A stretch of DNA of 64,000 nt from positions 1 through 64,000 of the forward strand of contig JAJRCF010000010.1 of the NCBI GenBank assembly GCA_028679075.1, given 5' to 3'. Position numbers and translations under genes: made by a program. This DNA is from Methanoregula sp. (GTDB taxonomy: Archaea > Halobacteriota > Methanomicrobia > Methanomicrobiales > Methanospirillaceae). The notes beneath the pieces are model-generated. The model made no database searches. It was not told the origin of the DNA and saw only the letters and a program-made list of their open reading frames with translations. This document shows, piece after piece, positions 2,148-52,587 of the stretch (positions are counted from its first letter, which is position 1; each line of letters opens with the position of its first letter).

Positions 2148-3002
2148 ATGGAGAGCATCCCGGCCGGACTTATAAAATCGCTCAACGATCTTGGTTTGAC
2201 TACCTATGAAGCGAGCGTGTATGCCGCGCTGGTCCTGTATGACAATGCAGAGGCCAAAGAGATCATTGACTTCCTCTCCATCTCCAAACCCAGCGTGTAC
2301 GAGGCATTGGATCGTCTTGCAGAGATGGGACTTGCGGTGAAGAGAATCTCAAAGCCGGCCCGGTACAGCCCGATCTCCCCGGAGATGGCAATTAACCTCC
2401 TCATGGACAGGCACAGGAAAGCAGCTGACCTGGCACTTGAAGCACTCCAAAAGCTGGAGAGAGAGAAGGTACGTACCGACAAGGAGGATGCCCTCTGGAC
2501 CATTTACGGGGACGCCAACATCGAGTATAAGATCCGGGAACTCTTCGGGAAAGCAAAACAGCAAATCAGCTGCATGATCGGTGAACGGTACCTCCCGTTC
2601 ATCCAAAATATCAAAATTAAGGATGTTTCACTGCAACTCATGGTGATCTCGGATGATTCGGATCTTGAGAAAAGACTAAAGAAATTATTTCCGGGGAAAA
2701 ATGCAGTCATCCATGTCATCTCCTCCGAACAATTCAAAATCCCGCCACCATTTATCCCACCGGAATTCGAGGAGATCCATAACCTGATGAAAGTCGAACA
2801 CATGCTTGAGCTGATCGTTGACGATGAGGAACTCCTCATGGTTCCGCCATTTATTTCCGGCAGCGTTTCGGTCCTCAACACCAGGAATAAGGGAGCAATC
2901 CTCCAGATGAAAATGATGAGCCAGCTCAACCTGAAACGGTTCATCACAAATGAGGAATTTCCGAATCCCCGGCAACTCCCTCAAAAGAGATCGCGAAAAT
3001 AG
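2148..3002 (+). CDS. TrmB-family transcriptional regulator
   Basis: A 284-residue DNA-binding regulator. Residues of about 8-80 form a winged helix of the TrmB type (starting LNDLGLTTYEASVYAALV, with the recognition region SISKPSVYEALDRLAEMGL). A short coiled segment follows at about 85-105, then a C-terminal effector region (about 120-265) of the TrmB/PLD-like fold. Classical sugar-binding TrmB proteins are longer, at about 340 residues, so the ligand here may not be a sugar. It is divergent from the COG1361-ABC operon, with matching palindromes between them, so local and auto-regulation is likely. Its ligand is unknown. Confidence 0.88.
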   Translation: MESIPAGLIKSLNDLGLTTYEASVYAALVLYDNAEAKEIIDFLSISKPSVYEALDRLAEMGLAVKRISKPARYSPISPEMAINLLMDRHRKAADLALEALQKLEREKVRTDKEDALWTIYGDANIEYKIRELFGKAKQQISCMIGERYLPFIQNIKIKDVSLQLMVISDDSDLEKRLKKLFPGKNAVIHVISSEQFKIPPPFIPPEFEEIHNLMKVEHMLELIVDDEELLMVPPFISGSVSVLNTRNKGAILQMKMMSQLNLKRFITNEEFPNPRQLPQKRSRK

Positions 3003-3077
3003 GTAGTATCTGAATACCGGGTCCCGGAACGATGCTCCTTCATGTCGGATAGAGGGGCAAGAAGATTCTCCCGGGGT

Positions 3078-4262
3078 TCACACTACCAGCATCAGCCCGG
3101 GATGCGACCCGGTGATCGACCGGCCACCCTGCGGGGTCACGATAAACGTATTCTCGATCCCGACAAGGCCGACATCCGGGATCCCCTTCTTGGGCTCGAC
3201 CGCAAAGACCATCCCTTCTTCGAGCGGTTCATCGAACCCTTCCGCGATGACCGGGGTCTCGTCGATCCAGAGCCCGATCCCGTGGCCGAGGAACTTGACC
3301 CGGCGGTTGCCATAGCCCATGAAGTTTTTCAGGAACTCCGGCTCAAGGTCCGCCATGATATTCCGGTAAATCTCAGAGGGGATTGCACCGGGCCTGAGCT
3401 GGGCGGCGATCTTGTCCTGGATCTCCACGCAGCGCCCGTGCTCGCGGATGGCATAATCGGGGATCGGCTTGCCGAACATGTACGAGAGGGTCTTGTCGGT
3501 CTGGTACCCGTTGACCCCGCACCCGATATCGATGACAACCAGATCGCCTTCTTTGAGTTTCTTCTCCCGGCAGCCCATCTGGGGTACCGAGGGGTGCAGG
3601 CCGGAGACACCGCCGGGGGTATCAACGCAGATGGGACGGATGGAACTCGTGCCGAACCCGATCTGGCCGAGCAGCATCTCGTTGAACATACCGAAGCGGA
3701 TGATGCCCTGGTGGCCTTCCTTCACCATCACCGAGTATAGCTCGCAGGCGAAGGTGACCTCATCGATCCCTTCCGTGAGCATGCCGGGCACGAGGTCCTC
3801 AAGTACGTGGCGGTGGATCTTCCCGGCGCGTTCCATCAGAGCAAACTCGTACGGGCTCTTCTTCGCCCTGACCGCAGAGACCTGCGCATCCACTGACCGT
3901 ACATCGGTGAACGGGAGATGTTTCTGCATCCGCTGGAGCTGGGCGACAGGGACGAGGTCGGTCTCAAGATACACCGTTTTCGGGATCGTGCCCATGCCCG
4001 CTGCCACGTCCCGGTAACTCCGCATCTGACGGAGATCAGGGAAGAGCGACTCCTCTTCGGCCCGCTCGAAACTCTGCCGCACCCAGAAGACCGCATCGCT
4101 TCCCTGCGGGATCAGGAGGAGTCCGTCCTGCATCGTGCCCGTAAAGTAGTAGAGGGATACCTTGCCGGTGATTGCTGCCATCTCCCAGCCGGACTGCTTC
4201 TGGTCCATCCGTACCCGGAAGCGCTTGAGCCGGTCTTCGAGTTCGGTGAGCGGGACTTTCAT
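3078..4262 (-). CDS. M24 family metallopeptidase (Xaa-Pro aminopeptidase/dipeptidase-like)
   Basis: A cytosolic pita-bread-fold peptidase of about 394 residues, expected to cleave X-Pro bonds. The metal ligands are visible in order: two Asp in VVIDIGCGVNGYQTDKT, His in GHGIGLWIDE, Glu in VFAVEPKKG and Glu in GIENTFIVT. An N-terminal creatinase-like domain (about 1-150) precedes the catalytic half. The start chosen is the ATG at 4262 (MKVPLTELEDRLKRF), which opens the conserved domain. A start 42 bases upstream (4304) is also possible and would add SSILSFLPSHDID. The true substrate cannot be told from sequence because this family also includes creatinase-like and PepQ-like enzymes. Confidence 0.88.
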   Translation of the reverse strand: MKVPLTELEDRLKRFRVRMDQKQSGWEMAAITGKVSLYYFTGTMQDGLLLIPQGSDAVFWVRQSFERAEEESLFPDLRQMRSYRDVAAGMGTIPKTVYLETDLVPVAQLQRMQKHLPFTDVRSVDAQVSAVRAKKSPYEFALMERAGKIHRHVLEDLVPGMLTEGIDEVTFACELYSVMVKEGHQGIIRFGMFNEMLLGQIGFGTSSIRPICVDTPGGVSGLHPSVPQMGCREKKLKEGDLVVIDIGCGVNGYQTDKTLSYMFGKPIPDYAIREHGRCVEIQDKIAAQLRPGAIPSEIYRNIMADLEPEFLKNFMGYGNRRVKFLGHGIGLWIDETPVIAEGFDEPLEEGMVFAVEPKKGIPDVGLVGIENTFIVTPQGGRSITGSHPGLMLVV

Positions 4263-7647: not shown

Positions 7648-8810
7648 GAGACGTAGCAGTTATCGGTGTAGGCTGCACCAAGTTCGGCGAGCACTGGGAC
7701 CGGTCGTTCCGCGATCTCTTCGTGGAGGCAGGGGCGCTTGCCCTTGAGGACGCTAAGCTTTCGGGCGAGAAGATCGATGCAATGTATGTCGGCAACATGA
7801 GCGCCGGCCGGTTCATCGAGCAGGAGCACATCGGCGCCCTGATCGCTGACTACTCGGGCATGGCAACTCGCCACATCCCCGCAACCCGTGTCGAGGCTGC
7901 CTGTGCATCCGGCGGTCTTGCCTTCCGGCAGGCCGTGATCGCGGTTGCAAGCGGCATGGAAGACATTGTTGTCGCAGCTGGCGTCGAGAAGATGACCGAT
8001 GTCGAGCCCGGCGCGAGCACCGACGCCCTCACCGGCGCAGCGGACCGCGAGTGGGAAGGATTTGTCGGGGCAACATTCCCCGGTCTCTACGCGATGATCG
8101 CAACCGACTACATGCACAAGTACCACATGACCCGCGAACAGCTGGCGCAGGTAGCCGTGAAGAACCACTTCAATGGTGCACGGAACCCGATCGCCCAGTT
8201 CCCGAACGAGATCACGCTCGAAACCGTCATGAAATCCACGATGGTAGCCGAGCCCCTCCGGCTCTTCGACTGCTCGCCCATCACCGATGGGGCGGCGGCA
8301 GTCATTGTTGCACCGCTCGAACGGGCACGTGAGTTCACGGACACGCCCATCAAGGTGCTGGCAACGGCTCAGGCAAGCGACTCGATCGCCCTTCACGACC
8401 GGCGTGACATCTCGACCATGGACGCATCCGTTGCCGCAGGGCAGCGGGCATTCAAGATGGCAAAACTCACCCATAAGGACATCAACATGGTGGAAGTGCA
8501 CGACTGCTTCTCGATTGCAGAGATCTGCGCCATCGAGGACCTCGGGTTCTGCAAGAAAGGAACTGCCGGCAAGTTTACCGCAGACGGCGAGACCGCACTC
8601 GGCGGGAAGATCCCGGTCAACACGAGCGGCGGCCTCAAGGCATGCGGCCATCCGGTCGGCGCAACCGGCATCAAGCAGGTGTACGAGATCGTCCAGCAGC
8701 TCCGCGGCGACGCAGGCAGGCGGCAGGTCGAGAACGCGAAGATCGGCATGACGCACAACGTGGGCGGCACCGGTGCTACCGTTGCCGTGCACATCCTCGG
8801 GAGGGTATAA
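7644..8810 (+). CDS. Acetyl-CoA C-acetyltransferase (thiolase)
   Basis: This 388-residue thiolase-superfamily enzyme makes acetoacetyl-CoA from two acetyl-CoA, an uphill step pulled by the adjacent synthase. The acylated Cys is at about 88 (EAACASGG) and the C-terminal His/Cys motif is [14 protein letters not shown], followed by the [16 protein letters not shown] end. The sequence is of the SCP-x/archaeal thiolase type rather than the bacterial PhaA type. It starts four bases before the synthase stop. The next gene begins one base after this stop, so all three are co-translated. I see no missing catalytic residue. Confidence 0.95.
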
Positions 8811-41987: not shown

Positions 41988-43922
41988 ATGCTCCAGGCAA
42001 TGAAACGCATCCAGGTGATCGGGCCAAAGGATGAACTGGGCCGGGCAGTCGACCTGTTGTACCGGGCGGGCACCGTCCATCTCGAAAACGCACCGGAACT
42101 CATATCACGGGGCGAGATCTGCCTCGACCGTGTCAGGCAGGAGGAGGCCACGGCCGTTGCCGAAGTCCTCGGGAAGACCAGCGCTATCTTTTCCACCCTC
42201 CCTCCCATCGAAGATGATCCGGACCGCCAGGCACAGCTCCGGGCATCTCTTGAAAAAAAGACTCACGCTGAGCTTGTTGAACGGGCGCGGGAGATCATCC
42301 ATACCCTCGAGACAACGACACGGGAGCTGGCGGCAAAGAAAAGCGAGCTTACGCTCTCGATCACAACGCTGAACCGGTACGAGAAGGTACTTGATATCAT
42401 CCAGCCGGTTGAGAAGGAACTGCCGGTACTGGAGGGATTCGAGGTCACGATCCTCCTCATCCAGGAGGAGCACCGGGACGTCCTCGCGCTGATCAAGAAA
42501 GAACTGGACACGATCACCGGCGACCGGTTCGAGATGACCGCAACAACGGTCGATGCCGATACCCTCGCTGCCATCATGGTCTTTCCCAAAAAGTACTCCG
42601 AGGAGATCCATTCCTTTATTTATTCCGTGAACGTGAACGAGGTGAGGCTCCCGAAAGAATACTCAGGCCGGCCGTTTTACGAGATGTATGCCCTGCTCGC
42701 AGACAGCAGGATGCGGGCCCAGGACGAGATCGCCCGTATCGATGCAGACCTGCTCACGTTCTCAAATACGTGGTACCAGGAACTTGTTGTCATCAGAAAG
42801 CAGCTTGAGAATATCCATGGGGAACTCGGGGAGTACCGGAACTTTGGGATCTCGGAGTACACGTTTGTCATCATGGGCTGGATCCCGAAAAAGTACCTCA
42901 AAAAGACTGAACAGGCCCTGCACGATACCTTTGGCGACCGTGTGATCGTCTGCGAACTCCCGACAACGGGAAAGGATATGGAAGATGCCCCGGTCTTCTA
43001 TGATAATCCGTTCTGGGTGAAACCGTTCGAGGTCATCATGCAGCTCGTCTCCCCGCCACGGTACCGCGAGGTCGATCCGTCCCCTGTCCTTGCGATCTTC
43101 TTCCCGCTCTTCTTCGGCATCATGGTCGGCGACATCGGGTACGGGCTCGTTATCCTCGCCTTCGCGCTCATTATCCGTCACCGTTTCGCAGCAATCGCGT
43201 TTGCAAAAAGCCTTGCCGACATCCTGATAATCTCGTCAATACCGACAATCATCTTCGGGTACCTGTTCGGCGAATTCTTCGGGGACCTCGGGGAGGTGAT
43301 GGGCTGGCTCCACCCGGTGCACATCCTCGGCATCACCTGGAACCGCGTGGAGGCAATGATCCCGATGCTGATCCTCGCCATCGCGATCGGGGTTATCCAC
43401 GTGGTCCTGGGTCTCCTCATCGGCATCCGGAACGCGGTGATCACAAAGAGCCGCAAGCACCTTTATGAAAAGTGCGGCATGCTGATGATGATCCTGGCAC
43501 TCGTCATCCTGATGGCGATGCTCGGCGGCGTTATTTCGGATACCGCGATCTACCCGGTAGTCGCCCTCATGGTCATCGCCCTGCCTCTCATCCTGATGGG
43601 GGCGGGGGTGTTCGGCACAATCGAGGTGATGGGCACGGTCGGTAACATCCTCTCGTACGCCCGGCTGATGGCAATCGGCATGGCCTCGGTGATCCTCGCG
43701 ATGGTGGCAAACGAGCTCGGCGGGGCATTCGAGTTTGCCATCATCGGGATCATCGTTGCTATCCTGCTGCACGCACTCAATATCGTGCTCGCGATGTTCT
43801 CCCCTTCGATCCACTCGATGCGTCTCCATATCGTGGAGTTCTTCTCGAAGTTTTACGAAGGGGGCGGGATGAAGTATAAACCGTTCCGGAAAAATGCGGA
43901 TGCAGAAGGGGCGGGGGAGTGA
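41988..43922 (+). CDS. ahaI: A-type ATP synthase subunit I (a-subunit)
   Basis: The 644-residue membrane stator that holds the half-channels for H+ or Na+. Residues of about 1-340 form the cytoplasmic arm that contacts the peripheral stalk, and the C-terminal 300 residues contain about eight helices. The region FFPLFFGIMVGDIGYGLVILAFALI and the helix YARLMAIGMASVILAMVANELGG carry the conserved Arg and polar residues that face the c-ring (subunit K). The end HIVEFFSKFYEGGGMKYKPFRK is typical. The start is ATG 41988, with ATG 42000 (MKRIQVIG) an alternative. The gene is followed by a palindromic terminator-like spacer. Confidence 0.95.
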   Translation: MLQAMKRIQVIGPKDELGRAVDLLYRAGTVHLENAPELISRGEICLDRVRQEEATAVAEVLGKTSAIFSTLPPIEDDPDRQAQLRASLEKKTHAELVERAREIIHTLETTTRELAAKKSELTLSITTLNRYEKVLDIIQPVEKELPVLEGFEVTILLIQEEHRDVLALIKKELDTITGDRFEMTATTVDADTLAAIMVFPKKYSEEIHSFIYSVNVNEVRLPKEYSGRPFYEMYALLADSRMRAQDEIARIDADLLTFSNTWYQELVVIRKQLENIHGELGEYRNFGISEYTFVIMGWIPKKYLKKTEQALHDTFGDRVIVCELPTTGKDMEDAPVFYDNPFWVKPFEVIMQLVSPPRYREVDPSPVLAIFFPLFFGIMVGDIGYGLVILAFALIIRHRFAAIAFAKSLADILIISSIPTIIFGYLFGEFFGDLGEVMGWLHPVHILGITWNRVEAMIPMLILAIAIGVIHVVLGLLIGIRNAVITKSRKHLYEKCGMLMMILALVILMAMLGGVISDTAIYPVVALMVIALPLILMGAGVFGTIEVMGTVGNILSYARLMAIGMASVILAMVANELGGAFEFAIIGIIVAILLHALNIVLAMFSPSIHSMRLHIVEFFSKFYEGGGMKYKPFRKNADAEGAGE

Positions 43923-44112: not shown

Positions 44113-44697
44113 TCACTTGGCTGTTACCGTCGCTTTAACAATATACGTTGCATTCTCAACGGACGGGACGAGTGTTTTGCAACGCCCATTGAGGCAGCCG
44201 CGAGCAGCCCTGTCATCACCGTACCAGAGATAGTATGTCCCAACAGAAGTGACTGAATCGGCAAGACTTTTAGTATACTCATGCGCATTTTTATCCAGAC
44301 TGCTGACGATATGCCACTGGTAATTGGGATCTAAATCATCTATACTTGGATATGTTGTGCCATTGATGGTCAGGGTTTCCAGATACATCCGGTCAAGGTA
44401 TCTGCTGTAGGTCATCCACGTGTAATTATATCCTGCGGAGCGGAGCATGATATAAAAAGTATTTCTGCCGCGTGCTTTAGGATCGGACATGATTGCTGAT
44501 TTGTAATCCTGGGAGGACGTATCTTTGGCAAGATCCATCATCACGGGATCTGCCCTTAGCGATATGTCAGCAACGACCTTTCCCTCTGCTGCAACTGGGG
44601 GGATTATTGCATTGCACCAAAAACCGATTATCACGAGAAAGAGTAGCAATCCGATCCTAAATACGGGACCTTTTCTTTTCTTTTCGTTCTGTTTCAT
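44113..44697 (-). CDS. Secreted protein sharing a C-terminal domain with the PKD protein
   Basis: A 194-residue exported protein. The lead KQNEKKRKGPVFRIG plus a hydrophobic segment forms a signal sequence ending near VAAEG. The rest (about 38-194) has no known family that I can name. Residues of about 85-194 resemble the end of the PKD protein at 46690: YTWMTYSRYLDRMYLETL against a similar W..Y..YGYYLEQL; TYPSI..YQWHIV..LD; and YYLWYG..AA followed by PS.ENATYLVK-like ends. It is convergent with ahaI and divergent from the caspase-like gene. Probably a surface protein; function unknown. Confidence 0.75.
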   Translation of the reverse strand: MKQNEKKRKGPVFRIGLLLFLVIIGFWCNAIIPPVAAEGKVVADISLRADPVMMDLAKDTSSQDYKSAIMSDPKARGRNTFYIMLRSAGYNYTWMTYSRYLDRMYLETLTINGTTYPSIDDLDPNYQWHIVSSLDKNAHEYTKSLADSVTSVGTYYLWYGDDRAARGCLNGRCKTLVPSVENATYIVKATVTAK

Positions 44698-45099: not shown

Positions 45100-46689
45100 A
45101 TGCCATTGAAGATTTTCTCACGAAAGACCGGCGCTTCCCGGAATTATTTATGGATCGCCGGAATTATCCTGGGTATCATCCTGTTAACCATGCCTGCCAG
45201 TGGAGACCCTCCACTGGGGGTAGGTTCTGGAACCTGTTTACCTGATTACTATGGGGACTGGAGATGCTGCACTGATCCATTGACTACATTGGATTGTATA
45301 CAATATCCATGCCTGAATTATTGCGATTATGAAAAATGCTGGGCAGATGATCCGGCCTCGCCTCCCATAAGCTGCTCCAACAGTAAAATCTTTCATCCCG
45401 GCTCTTCAGTTTCTTTTTATGGATTGCTGGACCATGTCAGGATAAATGATCCCAACGGAGATGAAATAGAAAATTCGCTGGTTATAGGAAGGACCGCATT
45501 TCCGGCCTGTCCCTCCGGTCCCGGGGTATACTCGGTCCATATGGATCTCGTCTTCTATGACTGTTATACCTGTGACGATACAACTCCAACACCGACTACA
45601 GAGCCCACGCAAACTATTACCCCGAACGTTACCCCGACACTGCCGGAGGCTGATTTCACGTTCCCCACACCAGGCAACAATGCCCCGATCGCCGATTTCA
45701 CCGCCAACCCGCGATCCGGCACCGCCCCGCTTACCGTCAGCTTTACCGACACGTCCACCCGTGCTCCGACCGCATGGTCGTGGTCGTTTGGCGACGGTAC
45801 GAAATCGACACTGAGGAACCCGACACATATCTATAACTCTGCCGGGACGTATGACGTGAGCCTGACGGCAGCAAATGTTTACGGGGGGGATACGGAGGTG
45901 AAGAATGGGTATGTGACGGTGACGCCGGGGCCGGAAGTGTTTACCTATGCGGTTACAAACGCGAATGGCGCGAAAGACCCGACAACGGGACGATGGGTGT
46001 GGAATGAAAATTCGAGATACGATATCGATGACATGAAAAATTATCTCGCAAATAATAATAACTGGAATAATGTTCACTGGAGGCAGTTGTTTTCAAAAGA
46101 AGGGGCTGCGGTAACCAAGGGAGTTCTCGAAACCACATCATCCGGGGAAGATTCACTAAATGACGCCACCCTTTTTTACCATACAGGTCATGGGGACTGG
46201 CCGGATCGCAACAGCCATTCCGATCTCAAGTTAGTAGATGAGGATTATAATAGCTATTCACTATCCCCCGATGAACTGCAGGGTGCATGGGGCGGCAACA
46301 ACAAATGGGTGATCCTTTCCACCTGTTTCTCATTACGTGATGAACGGTGGGATGGTGTTTTTGCATCTACAAGTGCAACCCACGGGATACTGGGATTCAA
46401 GACGGAGTCATATCCTCATTCGAATTTCATGCAGACCTTCTTTGAATACGCTAAAACAAAATCCGTGAGAGATGCATTCCTATCAACTGTACAAAAATTA
46501 GACAAAACAACCAGGGTTCCATCTCCGAATGGAGGGACGGAGCATTTGACTGCTGTAACAATATTTAGTAATCAAAATCAAGCAAAGAATGATTTTTTAC
46601 CAGGTTTTGGATCTGGTATTCAACCGGATGCAGATCCAGTGAGGCCATATAGAGTTCAATGGCCTCCTCAATCAGAGGGAGGAGTGTAA
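45100..46689 (+). CDS. Secreted PKD protein with caspase-like C-terminal domain
   Basis: A 529-residue exported protein. A signal sequence (about 1-34) is followed by a Cys-rich region (about 45-160, more than ten Cys), a Pro/Thr linker and one PKD domain (about 198-275; FTANPRSGTAPLTVSFTDTST with the WSFGDGT signature). The C-terminal domain (about 280-480) has LFYHTGHGDW (His at about 364) and, about 45 residues on, WVILSTCFSL (Cys at about 409). This His-Gly-His-Gly plus S-x-C arrangement is the catalytic dyad pattern of clan CD peptidases (caspase, gingipain, legumain). Activity is inferred. The next gene starts directly after its stop codon, so they are co-expressed. Confidence 0.82.
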   Translation: MPLKIFSRKTGASRNYLWIAGIILGIILLTMPASGDPPLGVGSGTCLPDYYGDWRCCTDPLTTLDCIQYPCLNYCDYEKCWADDPASPPISCSNSKIFHPGSSVSFYGLLDHVRINDPNGDEIENSLVIGRTAFPACPSGPGVYSVHMDLVFYDCYTCDDTTPTPTTEPTQTITPNVTPTLPEADFTFPTPGNNAPIADFTANPRSGTAPLTVSFTDTSTRAPTAWSWSFGDGTKSTLRNPTHIYNSAGTYDVSLTAANVYGGDTEVKNGYVTVTPGPEVFTYAVTNANGAKDPTTGRWVWNENSRYDIDDMKNYLANNNNWNNVHWRQLFSKEGAAVTKGVLETTSSGEDSLNDATLFYHTGHGDWPDRNSHSDLKLVDEDYNSYSLSPDELQGAWGGNNKWVILSTCFSLRDERWDGVFASTSATHGILGFKTESYPHSNFMQTFFEYAKTKSVRDAFLSTVQKLDKTTRVPSPNGGTEHLTAVTIFSNQNQAKNDFLPGFGSGIQPDADPVRPYRVQWPPQSEGGV

Positions 46690-48468
46690 ATGAAGAAAAT
46701 TCTGATTATTAGTATTATTGCTATTATCATCGTCACATTCCTGTCAGTGATGAGTGCTGGTTTTTACCAGCATGTAACCCAGACAACAGGTGATGATAAT
46801 CACTACAGTACTCCTGTGGTGAACCCCCAGACTTTTTCTGGAACTAACATCAATGTATTTTCCGCAACAATCGGGAATATTACCATTGATACAATTCTTC
46901 CTGAGTCCCCGAGGGACATACGTATTTATAGAGGATATTTCAAGGAGGGCGATCTCGTTGAAAATTATTCTGGATTACAATTTGATGAAATTCAAAATCC
47001 GGTTCCCAAAGATCAGGCGCCCGCGGTTGCAGAGCAAATTCTTACACAATATGGGGGTTTACCTTCAGATGCACAACTCCTGTATTCACTTGTAAACTAT
47101 GGGGAGGTCCTCAACCGGACAACTCATGAAATAATTGAAAGGATACCCACAGGGACCTTTGTATCCTGGTACAGAAATATCGATGGGATGAGAATTGAAG
47201 GAGACTCAGATATTATTCAGGTTACTTTGGGTGAGAACGGAACACCCACCCGGGTCTACAAAGCTTGGAGAACGTATGAACCGCTCGGCAACGTTTCACT
47301 CATTCCGGTGAGTAAAGCAATCGACAAGCTGGCTTCAGGAGAGGTAATAAATCCGTTTTCAGCAGAAATTTCGGATGTCAGTATCTATAAAATACAACTC
47401 GGTTATTACATTAAAGGACTAGAAGAACCTGAAGTCACCACTGAACCGATCTGGGTCTTTTACGGGAACGCATCCGGCAATTATGTACCGTTCTATGTCT
47501 ACGCCCGCCAGTTCTCCAACTTCACCGCCACCCCCGTAACCGGCACCGTCCCCCTTGCTACCAGATTTAACGATACCTCCAACGCCTCGCCCACCCGATG
47601 GCTCTGGGACTTTGGCGACGGCACGAACTCGACCGTGCGGAATGCAACGCACGTGTATAATATATCCGGTACCTACAATGTCACGCTCCGTGCGTGGAAC
47701 GATCTCGGGAGCGATACGATAACAAAAGTCAACTTTATTCGTGTATCCCCGCAGATATTTGGCGCTAACTTCACCGTCAGCCCCGCAACCGGTATTGCCA
47801 CGCTTCCCGTTCGGTTCACCGATACCTCCAACGTCTCGGCTACCCGATGGCTCTGGGACTTCGGAGACGGCACGAACTCGACCGTGCAAAATCCGACGCA
47901 TACATACGAATCGCCCGGCACCTACGATGTCACACTCCAGGTATCGAACAATTACGGGAACGATACGATCGTCAGACAATATACGGTTGAACCTTCTCTT
48001 AAAATCATCGCCAACGCAACCGTGTATGCGAATTACAGTTATTATGCCACAATCGATGAAACTGTTTGGTATAATGATTACATCTTCGGTGTTGTGGGAA
48101 ATTCACATTTTAATACAACCGCACCGGCTTGGAACTGGACCAAAACTTGGATCACATATGGCACTTACGGGTATTATCTGGAACAACTGAAAGTCGGCGA
48201 GACTTACTATCCAGCAACTCCGGGACCCAGCGACTGGCAGTGGGTGGTTGTTGATCGCCTCGACGAGGACGCTATCCAAGGCTGGGATTCCCAATTCTGG
48301 AGATGTCTTGGCGGATATGTTTCTCCCTACAACAGCACGTACTATCTCTGGTACGGTAACGTTACGGCCGCCGAGGAACATCGTTATGGCACGACAGATT
48401 GGCTCTACCCGAGCTATGAGAATGCGACGTATCTTGTAAAAATCGATGTGATCTGGGATGATGAATGA
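46690..48468 (+). CDS. Two-PKD surface protein with propeptide-like N-terminal region
   Basis: A 592-residue exported protein. An N-terminal helix (about 4-24) anchors or directs export. Residues of about 100-225 (VAEQILTQYGGLPSD, then VSWYRNIDGMRIEGDSDIIQVTLGENG) resemble FTP/PepSY-type propeptide domains with the W-R-x-I-D-G pattern. Two PKD domains follow at about 278-350 and 357-437, both with WLWDFGDGTNSTV. The final 150 residues match the end of the protein at 44113. The gene is coupled to the caspase-like gene before it. A propeptide-like domain next to a peptidase gene suggests inhibition or folding help; this is inferred. Confidence 0.8.
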   Translation: MKKILIISIIAIIIVTFLSVMSAGFYQHVTQTTGDDNHYSTPVVNPQTFSGTNINVFSATIGNITIDTILPESPRDIRIYRGYFKEGDLVENYSGLQFDEIQNPVPKDQAPAVAEQILTQYGGLPSDAQLLYSLVNYGEVLNRTTHEIIERIPTGTFVSWYRNIDGMRIEGDSDIIQVTLGENGTPTRVYKAWRTYEPLGNVSLIPVSKAIDKLASGEVINPFSAEISDVSIYKIQLGYYIKGLEEPEVTTEPIWVFYGNASGNYVPFYVYARQFSNFTATPVTGTVPLATRFNDTSNASPTRWLWDFGDGTNSTVRNATHVYNISGTYNVTLRAWNDLGSDTITKVNFIRVSPQIFGANFTVSPATGIATLPVRFTDTSNVSATRWLWDFGDGTNSTVQNPTHTYESPGTYDVTLQVSNNYGNDTIVRQYTVEPSLKIIANATVYANYSYYATIDETVWYNDYIFGVVGNSHFNTTAPAWNWTKTWITYGTYGYYLEQLKVGETYYPATPGPSDWQWVVVDRLDEDAIQGWDSQFWRCLGGYVSPYNSTYYLWYGNVTAAEEHRYGTTDWLYPSYENATYLVKIDVIWDDE

Positions 48469-48752: not shown

Positions 48753-49412
48753 TCACCCGACAGCCTTCTTCTCCTTCGCCTTCTTTTTCTTCCTTTCTAA
48801 AATACTCTTGACCTTCTTCAAACGGAACAGGTCCTCCCGTTCCCGCTCCTCGATCGCGTTCTTGATGTACTTTGCCTGCCCCTTCAGCTCCGGGATCAGG
48901 ATCTGCTCCAAGGCATTTACCCGGCGCCGGTTCATCTGGATCTCGGACCCCAGCCGCCGCATTGCCGTCTCAGTCTCAGCCAGCTTGATCAACAGGTCCA
49001 GCTCCACCTCGTACCGCTCGGCGGTCTCATCGATCCGGGCGCTCGTAGTGATGATACCATAACCCCGCTCCATCATGCTCTTCGAGACCCGCTTCTTCTC
49101 GATCACCGGGACCGGGACTCCCATGATGTTCTTGCCGGTGATATCCACCGTTATTGACCGCCGGGTTGCAAACGATGCGGACTTCAGCGTGACCGGGTCA
49201 TCAACAGCCGCCGCGATCATCAGCGCCTGGTCAGCGGCCCGCGATACCTGCTCCAGCTCGTCGCGGGAATCAGAGACGCTGGAGAGGATCTTGAAGAACT
49301 CCTGGATGAGGGCGTCCATCTTCTCCCGCAGGAGGTCCCGGCCCTGCTCCGCGAGCTTGATCTGCGCCTTCTTCTTCATCAGCTCCATCCGCGTGGGCTT
49401 GACCTGCTCCAT
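48753..49412 (-). CDS. atpD: A-type ATP synthase subunit D (central stalk)
   Basis: A central rotor-stalk subunit that turns inside the A3B3 head. The 219-residue protein is two long helices in coiled-coil form: an N-terminal MEQVKPTRMELMKKKAQIKLAEQGRDLLREKMDALIQEFFK and a C-terminal TETAMRRLGSEIQMNRRRVNALEQILIPEL. The end is very Lys-rich (KKKKAKEKKAVG). It begins eight bases after the subunit B stop codon and is the last gene of the K-E-C-F-A-B-D operon. Confidence 0.95.
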   Translation of the reverse strand: MEQVKPTRMELMKKKAQIKLAEQGRDLLREKMDALIQEFFKILSSVSDSRDELEQVSRAADQALMIAAAVDDPVTLKSASFATRRSITVDITGKNIMGVPVPVIEKKRVSKSMMERGYGIITTSARIDETAERYEVELDLLIKLAETETAMRRLGSEIQMNRRRVNALEQILIPELKGQAKYIKNAIEEREREDLFRLKKVKSILERKKKKAKEKKAVG

Positions 49413-49420
49413 AATCCGTT

Positions 49421-50851
49421 TCAGCTCCCTGATGTTTTATCCGGCGCGTCCGCTGCGGCTTCCTTCGCTGCCGGGTGGTATTTCCTGATGTGCTCCCGCT
49501 TGATCCGCTTGAGCTCATCAACCGGCAGGGTGGCGAAAAGGTCCCAGGCAATGGCAAGCGTGGTCTCGATGGACCGGTCATCGTCCCCCTGCGTAATGAA
49601 CTGCCGCTCGAACCCGTCCGCGAACTTCAGGTACTTCCGGTCCAGGTCCGTGAGCGCCTCCTCCCCCACGATCGCAACGAGCCGGCGCAGGTCGCGGCCA
49701 TAGGCATAGCTGGCATAGAGCTGGTCCGCCACGCCACGGTGGTCCTCCCGGGTCTTGCCCGGCCCTATGCCGAGGTTCATGAGCCGGGAGAGGCAGGGAA
49801 GGGCATCGACCGGCGGGTCGGAGCCGCGCCGGAAGATGTCCCGCGAGAGCACGATCTGGCCCTCGGTGATATAGCCGGTGAGGTCGGGGACCGGATGGGT
49901 GATGTCATCGTCCGGCATGGTCAGGATCGGGATCTGCGTGATCGACCCGGTCTTTCCCTTCAGCCTCCCGGCCCGTTCGTAGATGGATGCGAGGTCGGTG
50001 TACATGTAGCCGGGATACCCGCGCCGGCCGGGCACCTCTTCGCGTGCAGTCGAGATCTCGCGAAGCGCCTCGCAGTAATTGATCATGTCGGTCAGGATGA
50101 CGAGGACGTGGAGGTTGTGGGTGAAGGCCAGGAACTCCGCGACCGTGAGACCGCACCGCGGGGCCGCAAGCCGTTCGACCGTCGGGTCATCGGCAAGGTT
50201 CATGAAGAAGACCACGCGATCCAGCGCTCCCGTCCGCTCGAAGTCCTGCATGAAGAACGAGGCCTCCTTGTGGGTGATCCCCATTGCCACAAAGACCACG
50301 GCGAACTCCTCGCCCTCGCCCCGCACCTTTGCCTGCCGGGCGATCTGGGCGGCGAGCTTGCTTGCCGGCAGGCCCGAGCCGGAGAAGATCGGCAGCTTCT
50401 GGCCCCGCACGAGCGTGTTGAGTCCATCAATTGCCGACATGCCGGTCTGGATAAAATCCGCCGGCTTGTCCCGGGCCGAGGGATTGATCGGCGTCCCGGC
50501 AATATCCAGCACTGCCTCCGGGATGATGTCAGGGCCTCCGTCCCGGGGCGTCCCGACACCGGTGAAGATACGGCCGAGCATGTCCTTTGACACATTGATC
50601 CGCGCCGGCTCACCGATGAACCGGGCCGTTGTCCCGACAAGGTCGATCCCCCGGGTACCCTCAAAGACCTGGACGACCGCGTGCTCCTCCGAGATGTCGA
50701 GCACCTGCCCGGTCCGCACCTCGCCGTCTTTTAAGGTGATCTTCACGATCTCCCCGTACGATGCACCGAGGACACCGTTGACGAAGATCAGCGGGCCCGA
50801 GACATAGTCGATCGTACGGTACTCCTTGGTCAGGAGCGACGTGTCTTTCAT
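49421..50851 (-). CDS. atpB: A-type ATP synthase subunit B (regulatory)
   Basis: The non-catalytic nucleotide-binding head subunit, 476 residues. It carries the degenerate P-loop [20 protein letters not shown] (about 150-170), which lacks the GKT Lys-Thr of subunit A, and the [18 protein letters not shown] region typical of B/beta subunits. The C-terminal part includes the [25 protein letters not shown] segment. The ATG overlaps the subunit A stop by four bases. No intein or insertion. Confidence 0.97.
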
Positions 50852-52587
50852 CTCTCCACCTCCAGCCTCGCGATTGCCGAAGTGACCTCATCGATCATCT
50901 TCCGGACCTCATCCACCTCGCCGGCATCCTTCATCCGCCCGATCGTTGCCTTCAGCGGGAGCACCTGCACCTGCCGGAGGCTGACCCCCCGGTTCATCGC
51001 CAGGTTCGCCTGTTCGTAATACGTCATGATCACCTTAAGCATCAGGTACTGCTTCTCGATGGGGCAGAACGAGTCCGTGTCGCTGTACGCGCTCTGCTGG
51101 AGGAAGTCCTCGCGGATCATCCGGGTCACGTCCAGGATCGCCTTCTCGCTGTCGGGCAGGGCGTCCGGGCCCACCAGCTGGACGATCTCCTGCAGCTCGA
51201 CCTCCTTCTGGAGAAGGTACATCGCCTTCTCCCGGAGCTCCCGCCAGTCCCGGGCAATGTTCTTGTCGTACCACTCCGAAATGCAGTCAAGGTAAAGCGA
51301 GTAACTCTTGATCCAGTTCACCGATGGGAAATGGCGGCGGTAAGCGAGGTTCGTGTCCAGTGCCCAGAATGTCCCGACAACGCGGAGCGTGTTCTGGGTG
51401 ATCGGTTCCGAGAAGTCACCGCCCGGTGGAGAAACAGCACCCACGACCGTGATCGATCCGTTCCGCTCGCCGGCACCAAGACAGATGACCCGGCCGGCCC
51501 GCTCGTAGAAGGCCGAGAGCCGGGTTGCAAGATAGGCAGGATACCCCTCCTCACCGGGCATCTCCTCAAGCCTGCCCGAGACCTCGCGGAGCGCCTCGCC
51601 CCAGCGGGAGGTCGAGTCCGCCAGCAGCGCCACATCATATCCCATGTCCCGGAAGTACTCAGCGATGGTAATCCCGGTATAGATCGAGGCCTCACGGGCG
51701 GCGACCGGCATGTTCGAGGTATTCGCGATCAGGATCGTCCGCTCGATCAGCGGGAGTTTTGTCCGGGGGTCGACGAGCTCGGGGAACTCCTCGAGCACGT
51801 CCGTCATCTCGTTGCCCCGCTCGCCGCACCCGATGTACACCACGATCTGGGTATCCGACCACTTTGCGAGCGTCTGTTCGGAGACGGTCTTGCCGGTCCC
51901 GAAACCGCCCGGGATCATCGCCGTCCCGCCTTTCGTTACCGGGAACATGCAGTCAAAGACCCGCTGCCCGGTGATGAGCGGCAGCAGGGGGTCGAGTTTC
52001 TTGATATGGGGCCGGGGGATCCGGACAGGCCAGGACTGCATCATGGGGAGCCTGATTTTGTTGTCGAGCACGCAGACGATCTCCTCGACCGTGAACGACC
52101 CCGCCCGGATCTCGGTGACCTTCCCGGACACTTTCGGGGGGACGAGGACCCGGTGCTCGAACTGGAACTCCTTCACGGTGCCGATCACATCCCCGTGCCC
52201 GAGCGTGTCACCGTTCTTCACTGAGGGAGCGAACGCCCACTTCTTCGAACGGTCGAGTCCCGGCGCGGTGATGCCCCGGCCGATGAAGTCGCCGCTCAGC
52301 TTGAGGAGGACCGGCAGCGGGCGCTGGACGCCGTCGTAGATAGACGCAAGGAGGCCCGGTCCCAGCTCCACGGAGAGCGGGGTCTCGGTATTCTCCACGG
52401 CCTCGCCCAGCGTGAGCCCGGTCGTGTCCTCGTACACCTGGATGACCGCCTCGTCGCCTTCGAGCCGGATGATCTCGCCGCGGAGGGCTTCGGCCCCGAC
52501 CTTCACCACGTCGTACATCTTGGACCCCTTCATGCCCTTGGCCATAATCACCGGGCCTGAGATCCGTGAAATTGTTCCTGAAATCAT
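50848..52587 (-). CDS. atpA: A-type ATP synthase subunit A (catalytic)
   Basis: The catalytic head subunit, 579 residues. It has the P-loop [22 protein letters not shown] (about 230), the catalytic [17 protein letters not shown] loop, the non-homologous region unique to A/V types (about 110-200) and the C-terminal helical domain. The P-loop is a common site of inteins in archaeal A-subunit genes; none is present here. It starts five bases after the end of the F gene and overlaps subunit B. Confidence 0.97.

Follow-up and report, generated by a model that had tools for sequence, protein, structure and literature searches.

Can the propeptide that inhibits or chaperones a secreted peptidase be carried by a separate surface protein, encoded by the next gene? 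The question is raised by a gene pair in a 64,000-nucleotide stretch of the Methanoregula sp. contig JAJRCF010000010.1 (the window, meaning here this whole stretch). Both open reading frames (ORFs) were confirmed at the coordinates in Table 1, and the TAA of gene 1 directly abuts the ATG of gene 2, so that the second gene does begin, as originally predicted, at the base after the first. From the gene structure, predicted folds, an invariant dyad, conserved adjacency and natural fusions, we propose, with a probability of about 0.62, that the product of gene 1 is a secreted clan CD cysteine peptidase and that gene 2 supplies a separate surface protein whose FTP/PepSY domain inhibits or chaperones that peptidase.

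Gene 1 has a signal peptide, recognized by eye, and 12 cysteines, 11 of which lie within residues 36–165, Cys409 being the sole remaining one; with its PKD_4 match and its His364/Cys409 pair, this bears out the modular architecture that had been read from the sequence. Pfam and NCBIfam scans of gene 1 returned, beyond PKD-type matches, unrelated weak ones only; it gave no Pfam caspase match and did not itself match the Pfam PF19872 (DUF6345) model. A search with its C-terminal domain against 100 related genomes found 28 places, and several of the relatives in these loci exceed the PF19872 cut-off. The domain directly matches a DUF6345 paralogue in its own genome (E = 5.2e-6), a profile excluding the window protein recovers gene 1 with E = 2.5e-47, and a profile restricted to four DUF6345-type paralogues (one from G059, the other three from its own genome) does so with E = 2.3e-6. 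Because relatives pass the cut-off and independent profiles recover gene 1, we assign its domain to DUF6345 as a divergent member, on transitive profile evidence and the same invariant residues. It shares the GHG histidine and the cysteine with PF19872 and differs by the added Cys-rich and PKD modules.

In a set of 63 distinct homologues of the domain, drawn from archaea and Deinococcus and as low as about 20% in identity, His364 and Cys409 are each invariant (63/63); no other fully covered position is. Further positions that are strongly conserved are Gly363, Gly365, Trp403, Trp417, His428, Gly432, Asp498 and Gly504. An AlphaFold2 model of the domain alone (10 sequences; mean predicted local distance difference test score (pLDDT) 76.5, predicted template modelling score (pTM) 0.82) places the two residues, numbered His84 and Cys129 in the domain, after strands 78–83 and 122–128. 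When this model was searched against the PDB with Foldseek, nearly all of the top 50 matches were clan CD peptidases, with probabilities mostly above 0.9; they included C11 (E = 1.6e-4), MALT1 (1.7e-4) and CED-3 (1.9e-4) as well as legumain, metacaspase and caspases, E-values ranging to about 1e-2. DdvA, an anti-sigma factor that we take to contain a caspase-related domain, was also among the matches. The original prediction had named the fold beforehand as the point at which it could fail, and the pTM 0.82 model matches clan CD structures; nor are His and Cys far apart, as judged by their positions after the two strands and not by a measured distance. As modelled, the gene 1 domain is of clan CD type, with a caspase/haemoglobinase fold and a His–Cys dyad ending successive core strands. 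It shares the predicted fold, the order of elements and the His-then-Cys dyad with C11 iotapain, C13 legumain, C14 caspases and metacaspases, and C25 gingipain, but single-sequence and profile searches of solved structures found no homologue, and the proposed inhibitory region is encoded by another gene, not in cis. The term 'caspase-like' covers fold and dyad, not Asp specificity, and gene 1 is not classed as a caspase.

Gene 2 opens with a hydrophobic segment followed by a region of about 230 residues without a Pfam match. It yielded no Pfam FTP or PepSY match above the cut-off, and its relatives gave weak, sub-threshold FTP/YycI matches. We modelled the gene 1 domain and the gene 2 N-terminal domain as one linked chain from 15 sequences, using in-frame read-through rows in which the gene 1 stop was read as Gly; this residue is a linker only, and no recoding is claimed. 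The partner domain reached a pLDDT of about 90, and Foldseek recovered both partner folds at once: YycI as the best match (E = 9.6e-9), CED-3 (3.6e-5) and caspases, and, at 2e-3 to 2e-2, the propeptides of an Aspergillus fungalysin-type metalloproteinase (4k90_B) and of vibriolysin (3nqz_A, 3nqy_A). Consistent with the FTP/PepSY-like region first proposed for the N-terminal half of gene 2, residues ~47–276 belong by predicted fold to the FTP/PepSY propeptide superfamily. In contrast to the M4/M36 propeptides of vibriolysin and fungalysin, the domain is part of a surface protein of its own, and its neighbour has the predicted fold of a cysteine peptidase, not of a metallopeptidase. Unlike YycI (2o3o), the regulator of YycFG/WalRK, gene 2 is archaeal, predicted to be secreted and furnished with PKD domains, and no two-component system was seen adjoining the gene pair. 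N-x-S/T sequons number 24 in gene 2 and one in gene 1, which suggests that the gene 2 product is a glycosylated surface protein.

The pairing is conserved well beyond the window. Of 45 enzyme domains in the 100 related genomes, 42 have the partner domain directly downstream on the same strand, and the remaining three, all in one genome (G094), have a divergent partner downstream; all 24 enzyme-bearing genomes of this set also carry the partner, nearly always adjacent. In a phylum-wide sample, automatic matching paired 55 of 62 enzyme domains with a partner; the median gap was −4 bases, and 26 of 51 overlapped. Among the seven left unpaired, L078 is cut by a contig end, the partner at L065 has in-frame stops, at L104 a stretch resembling the partner lies at a contig end, on the opposite strand, and three in G094 have divergent partners; L119 is the only one with no partner visible. 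In the genome of the window itself, each of the five enzyme units has a partner: they are the pair in the window, two pairs in tandem at L049, one at L050 and a fusion at L106. One partner there (L051) is an orphan. Enzyme and partner distances correlate with r 0.78, which shows joint inheritance of the pair but is no evidence of interaction.

The two domains also occur within single proteins. Four archaeal ORFs carry both, enzyme first: 556 residues at L106 in the genome of the window, 543 at L107, and 813 and 1,862 at L115. WP_015231519 (634 residues), encoded on plasmid pDEIPE01 of Deinococcus peraridilitoris, has a partner-like domain at 143–225 (E = 7e-12 in a search of one sequence) followed by DUF6345 at 408–632 (PF19872, 7e-70). 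This bacterial cis form, represented by one protein in the collections searched, has the usual propeptide layout and is the strongest hint at the role of the trans partner. Taken together, conserved adjacency, the archaeal fusions and the bacterial cis form support a functional pair, and the genomes compared indicate that the enzyme–partner arrangement is general for archaeal DUF6345, not unique to the window locus.

In the mechanism that we propose, gene 1 would be a secreted cysteine peptidase with the clan CD (caspase/gingipain/legumain) fold and a His364–Cys409 dyad, whose PKD and Cys-rich modules suit a place outside the cell. The FTP/PepSY (YycI-like) domain of gene 2 would bind the peptidase domain, inhibiting it and chaperoning its folding up to the point at which the partner is released or degraded; the PKD and C-terminal domains of gene 2 would position the complex at the cell surface, and translation of the two genes, if coupled, would supply matched amounts. 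Catalysis, binding, inhibition, surface location and coupling are each what we infer. We favour a trans-acting inhibitor or chaperone because of clan CD self-inhibition, the inhibition of M4 enzymes by PepSY domains, and the SleB/YpeB pair of Bacillus spores, which is alike in that a lytic enzyme has its PepSY partner in trans; the substrate of SleB is the peptidoglycan of the spore cortex, and SleB is not known to belong to clan CD. Self-inhibition is common within clan CD: in several families (C13, C25, C80 and metacaspases) sequence at the N or C terminus closes off the active site (PMC4357240). M4 proteases are inhibited by PepSY propeptides according to work cited in PMC4282423, and YpeB, a PepSY protein, may keep SleB inactive in trans (PMC13393411). 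PepSY, BLIP and related folds have been suggested to act as inhibitors whether the partner is part of the same protein or of another (PMC4282423).

Several observations weigh against this proposal. The Foldseek template modelling scores of the gene 1 domain are modest, mostly 0.3–0.5, which is consistent with remote homology. The linked-chain model has an overall pTM of 0.47, so that the mutual placement of the domains is not fixed and no interface is supported. The partner domain stands without a nearby DUF6345 at 37 of 94 places, and 16 of 40 genomes have the partner only; found away from DUF6345, the domain therefore has other roles too, and non-peptidases are also regulated by PepSY-type domains (PMC4282423). 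Finally, some loci have several consecutive partner genes per enzyme, four at L109 and at least five at L111, more than a 1:1 inhibitor requires; these arrays suggest partner expansion.

Other explanations of the pair were also weighed. The clan CD domain might be a processing peptidase or transpeptidase that cleaves or anchors its neighbour as a PKD surface protein, in the manner of PorU, legumain-type ligases or GPI8, with the PepSY-like domain as the recognition module. We retain this explanation, though we think it unlikely, because some partners are very large multi-PKD surface proteins (1,176 residues at L055, 1,259 at L058 and 1,370 at L062) and a single enzyme gene may be followed by four or more genes for partners (L109, L111); legumain-type peptide ligases are also among the fold matches. 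In many genomes, however, the partner is a signal segment plus a PepSY-like domain (~250–330 residues), with nothing to anchor, and the cis fusion in four archaeal proteins and Deinococcus is a propeptide-type layout.

It is quite improbable, in our judgement, that the two genes form a sensor or regulator pair in which the partner is a structural or stabilising surface protein like YycI, YycH or YpeB and the enzyme is controlled by localisation or stability only, its active site staying unoccluded. The best fold match, YycI, is a kinase regulator, the PepSY protein YpeB is thought, in one account, to stabilise SleB (PMC6660665), and the partner domain stands alone in the 16 enzyme-free genomes; yet all 24 enzyme genomes have the partner, nearly always next to the enzyme, and vibriolysin and fungalysin propeptides were matched as well. 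We give very little weight to the idea that DUF6345 is a non-catalytic binding module with a caspase fold: catalytically dead caspase homologues do exist in bacteria (PMC6426788), but the only fully covered invariant positions in the 63 domains are those of the dyad, which would not be expected of a binding module.

Where the original prediction saw a new arrangement, the PepSY partner in trans does appear new for a clan CD fold, as a new combination of known fold classes, but the arrangement is general for archaeal DUF6345, and SleB/YpeB provides a precedent for a PepSY partner in trans. We know of no such partner for a clan CD enzyme. PF19872 occurs in 48 of 393 sampled Halobacteriota genomes and, among 14 control genomes, in Methanosarcina acetivorans; a narrower profile search of genome contigs gave seven loci, Methanomicrobiales throughout. 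The gene 1 family was absent from the viral contigs and phages searched, and among plasmids it was found in Deinococcus peraridilitoris only. A search of the literature available found no paper mentioning DUF6345. Even odds seem appropriate for a broader proposal, in which DUF6345 would be a clan CD cysteine peptidase family that has gone unrecognised and whose zymogen is split: the FTP/PepSY propeptide would be in cis in at least one bacterium and, in methanogens and relatives, a surface protein in its own right, in some cases duplicated, and a single secreted enzyme would thus be under the control of one or several propeptides acting in trans. If true, a domain of unknown function would gain a mechanism (cysteine peptidase), FTP/PepSY propeptides would serve a second catalytic class, and a split zymogen system would be common in methanogens. 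Caspase-like activity has been reported in the archaeon Haloferax volcanii without matching gene homologues (PMC3615174); DUF6345 would be a candidate gene type for such activity in Halobacteriota, its presence in Haloferax not being implied. The copy in the genetically tractable M. acetivorans makes the proposal testable. A 2014 survey of archaeal 'dark matter' described arCOG06558, which may or may not be the partner family, as probably a secreted protease, with PepSY and M4 (PMC4158269).

Table 1. Features of the gene pair, in positions of the window
Feature	Coordinates	Strand	Remarks
Gene 1	45100..46689	+	529 aa; predicted secreted; signal peptide, Cys-rich segment, PKD, clan CD-like (DUF6345) domain
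Cys-rich segment	45205..45594	+	residues 36–165; 11 Cys; without Pfam family
Gene 1 PKD	45676..45921	+	residues 193–274; PF18911 (PKD_4), E = 1.3e-17
Putative clan CD-like catalytic domain	45940..46686	+	residues 281–529, ~245 aa; divergent DUF6345; from profiles and predicted fold
His364 codon	46189..46191	+	proposed catalytic His; GHG motif; after core strand 78–83 of the domain
Cys409 codon	46324..46326	+	proposed nucleophile; after core strand 122–128 of the domain
His428 codon	46381..46383	+	near-invariant (62/63)
GGAGG, Shine-Dalgarno-like	46678..46682	+	within the end of gene 1, before the gene 2 ATG; putative role
Gene 2	46690..48468	+	592 aa; signal peptide/anchor, FTP/PepSY (YycI-like), two PKD, C-terminal domain
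FTP/PepSY (YycI-like) propeptide-like domain	46828..47517	+	residues ~47–276; predicted fold
Gene 2 first PKD	47566..47730	+	approximate limits; Pfam/NCBIfam scan
Gene 2 second PKD	47767..47967	+	residues 360–426; Pfam
Gene 2 C-terminal domain	48010..48465	+	residues 441–592, ~150 aa; in few genomes

Some of the loci compared hold further features. After the tandem array at L049, an 89-residue ORF (8519–8788) is similar to the opening Cys-rich and PKD part of gene 1 and is probably a decayed further copy. G094 carries about ten enzyme–partner pairs across some 60 kb (L067, L068, L124, L125), several with in-frame stops. No evident peptidase was seen among the inspected neighbours of orphan partner genes (L127–L146); at L130, an orphan partner gene has as its neighbour, on the other strand, an archaeal serpin (2261–3535; PF00079, 8e-116).

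In the window, the pair is flanked by A-type ATP synthase genes, with subunit I at 41988–43922 (+) and D plus two alpha/beta-type subunits at 48753–52587 (−). The C-terminal domain of gene 2, of which the original prediction made no mention, has relatives elsewhere: a secreted protein of 194 residues encoded at 44113–44697 (−), without a Pfam family, is related to it in its C-terminal part (41% identity over 107 residues), and further copies lie at C7:33377–33778 in the same genome and in G025.
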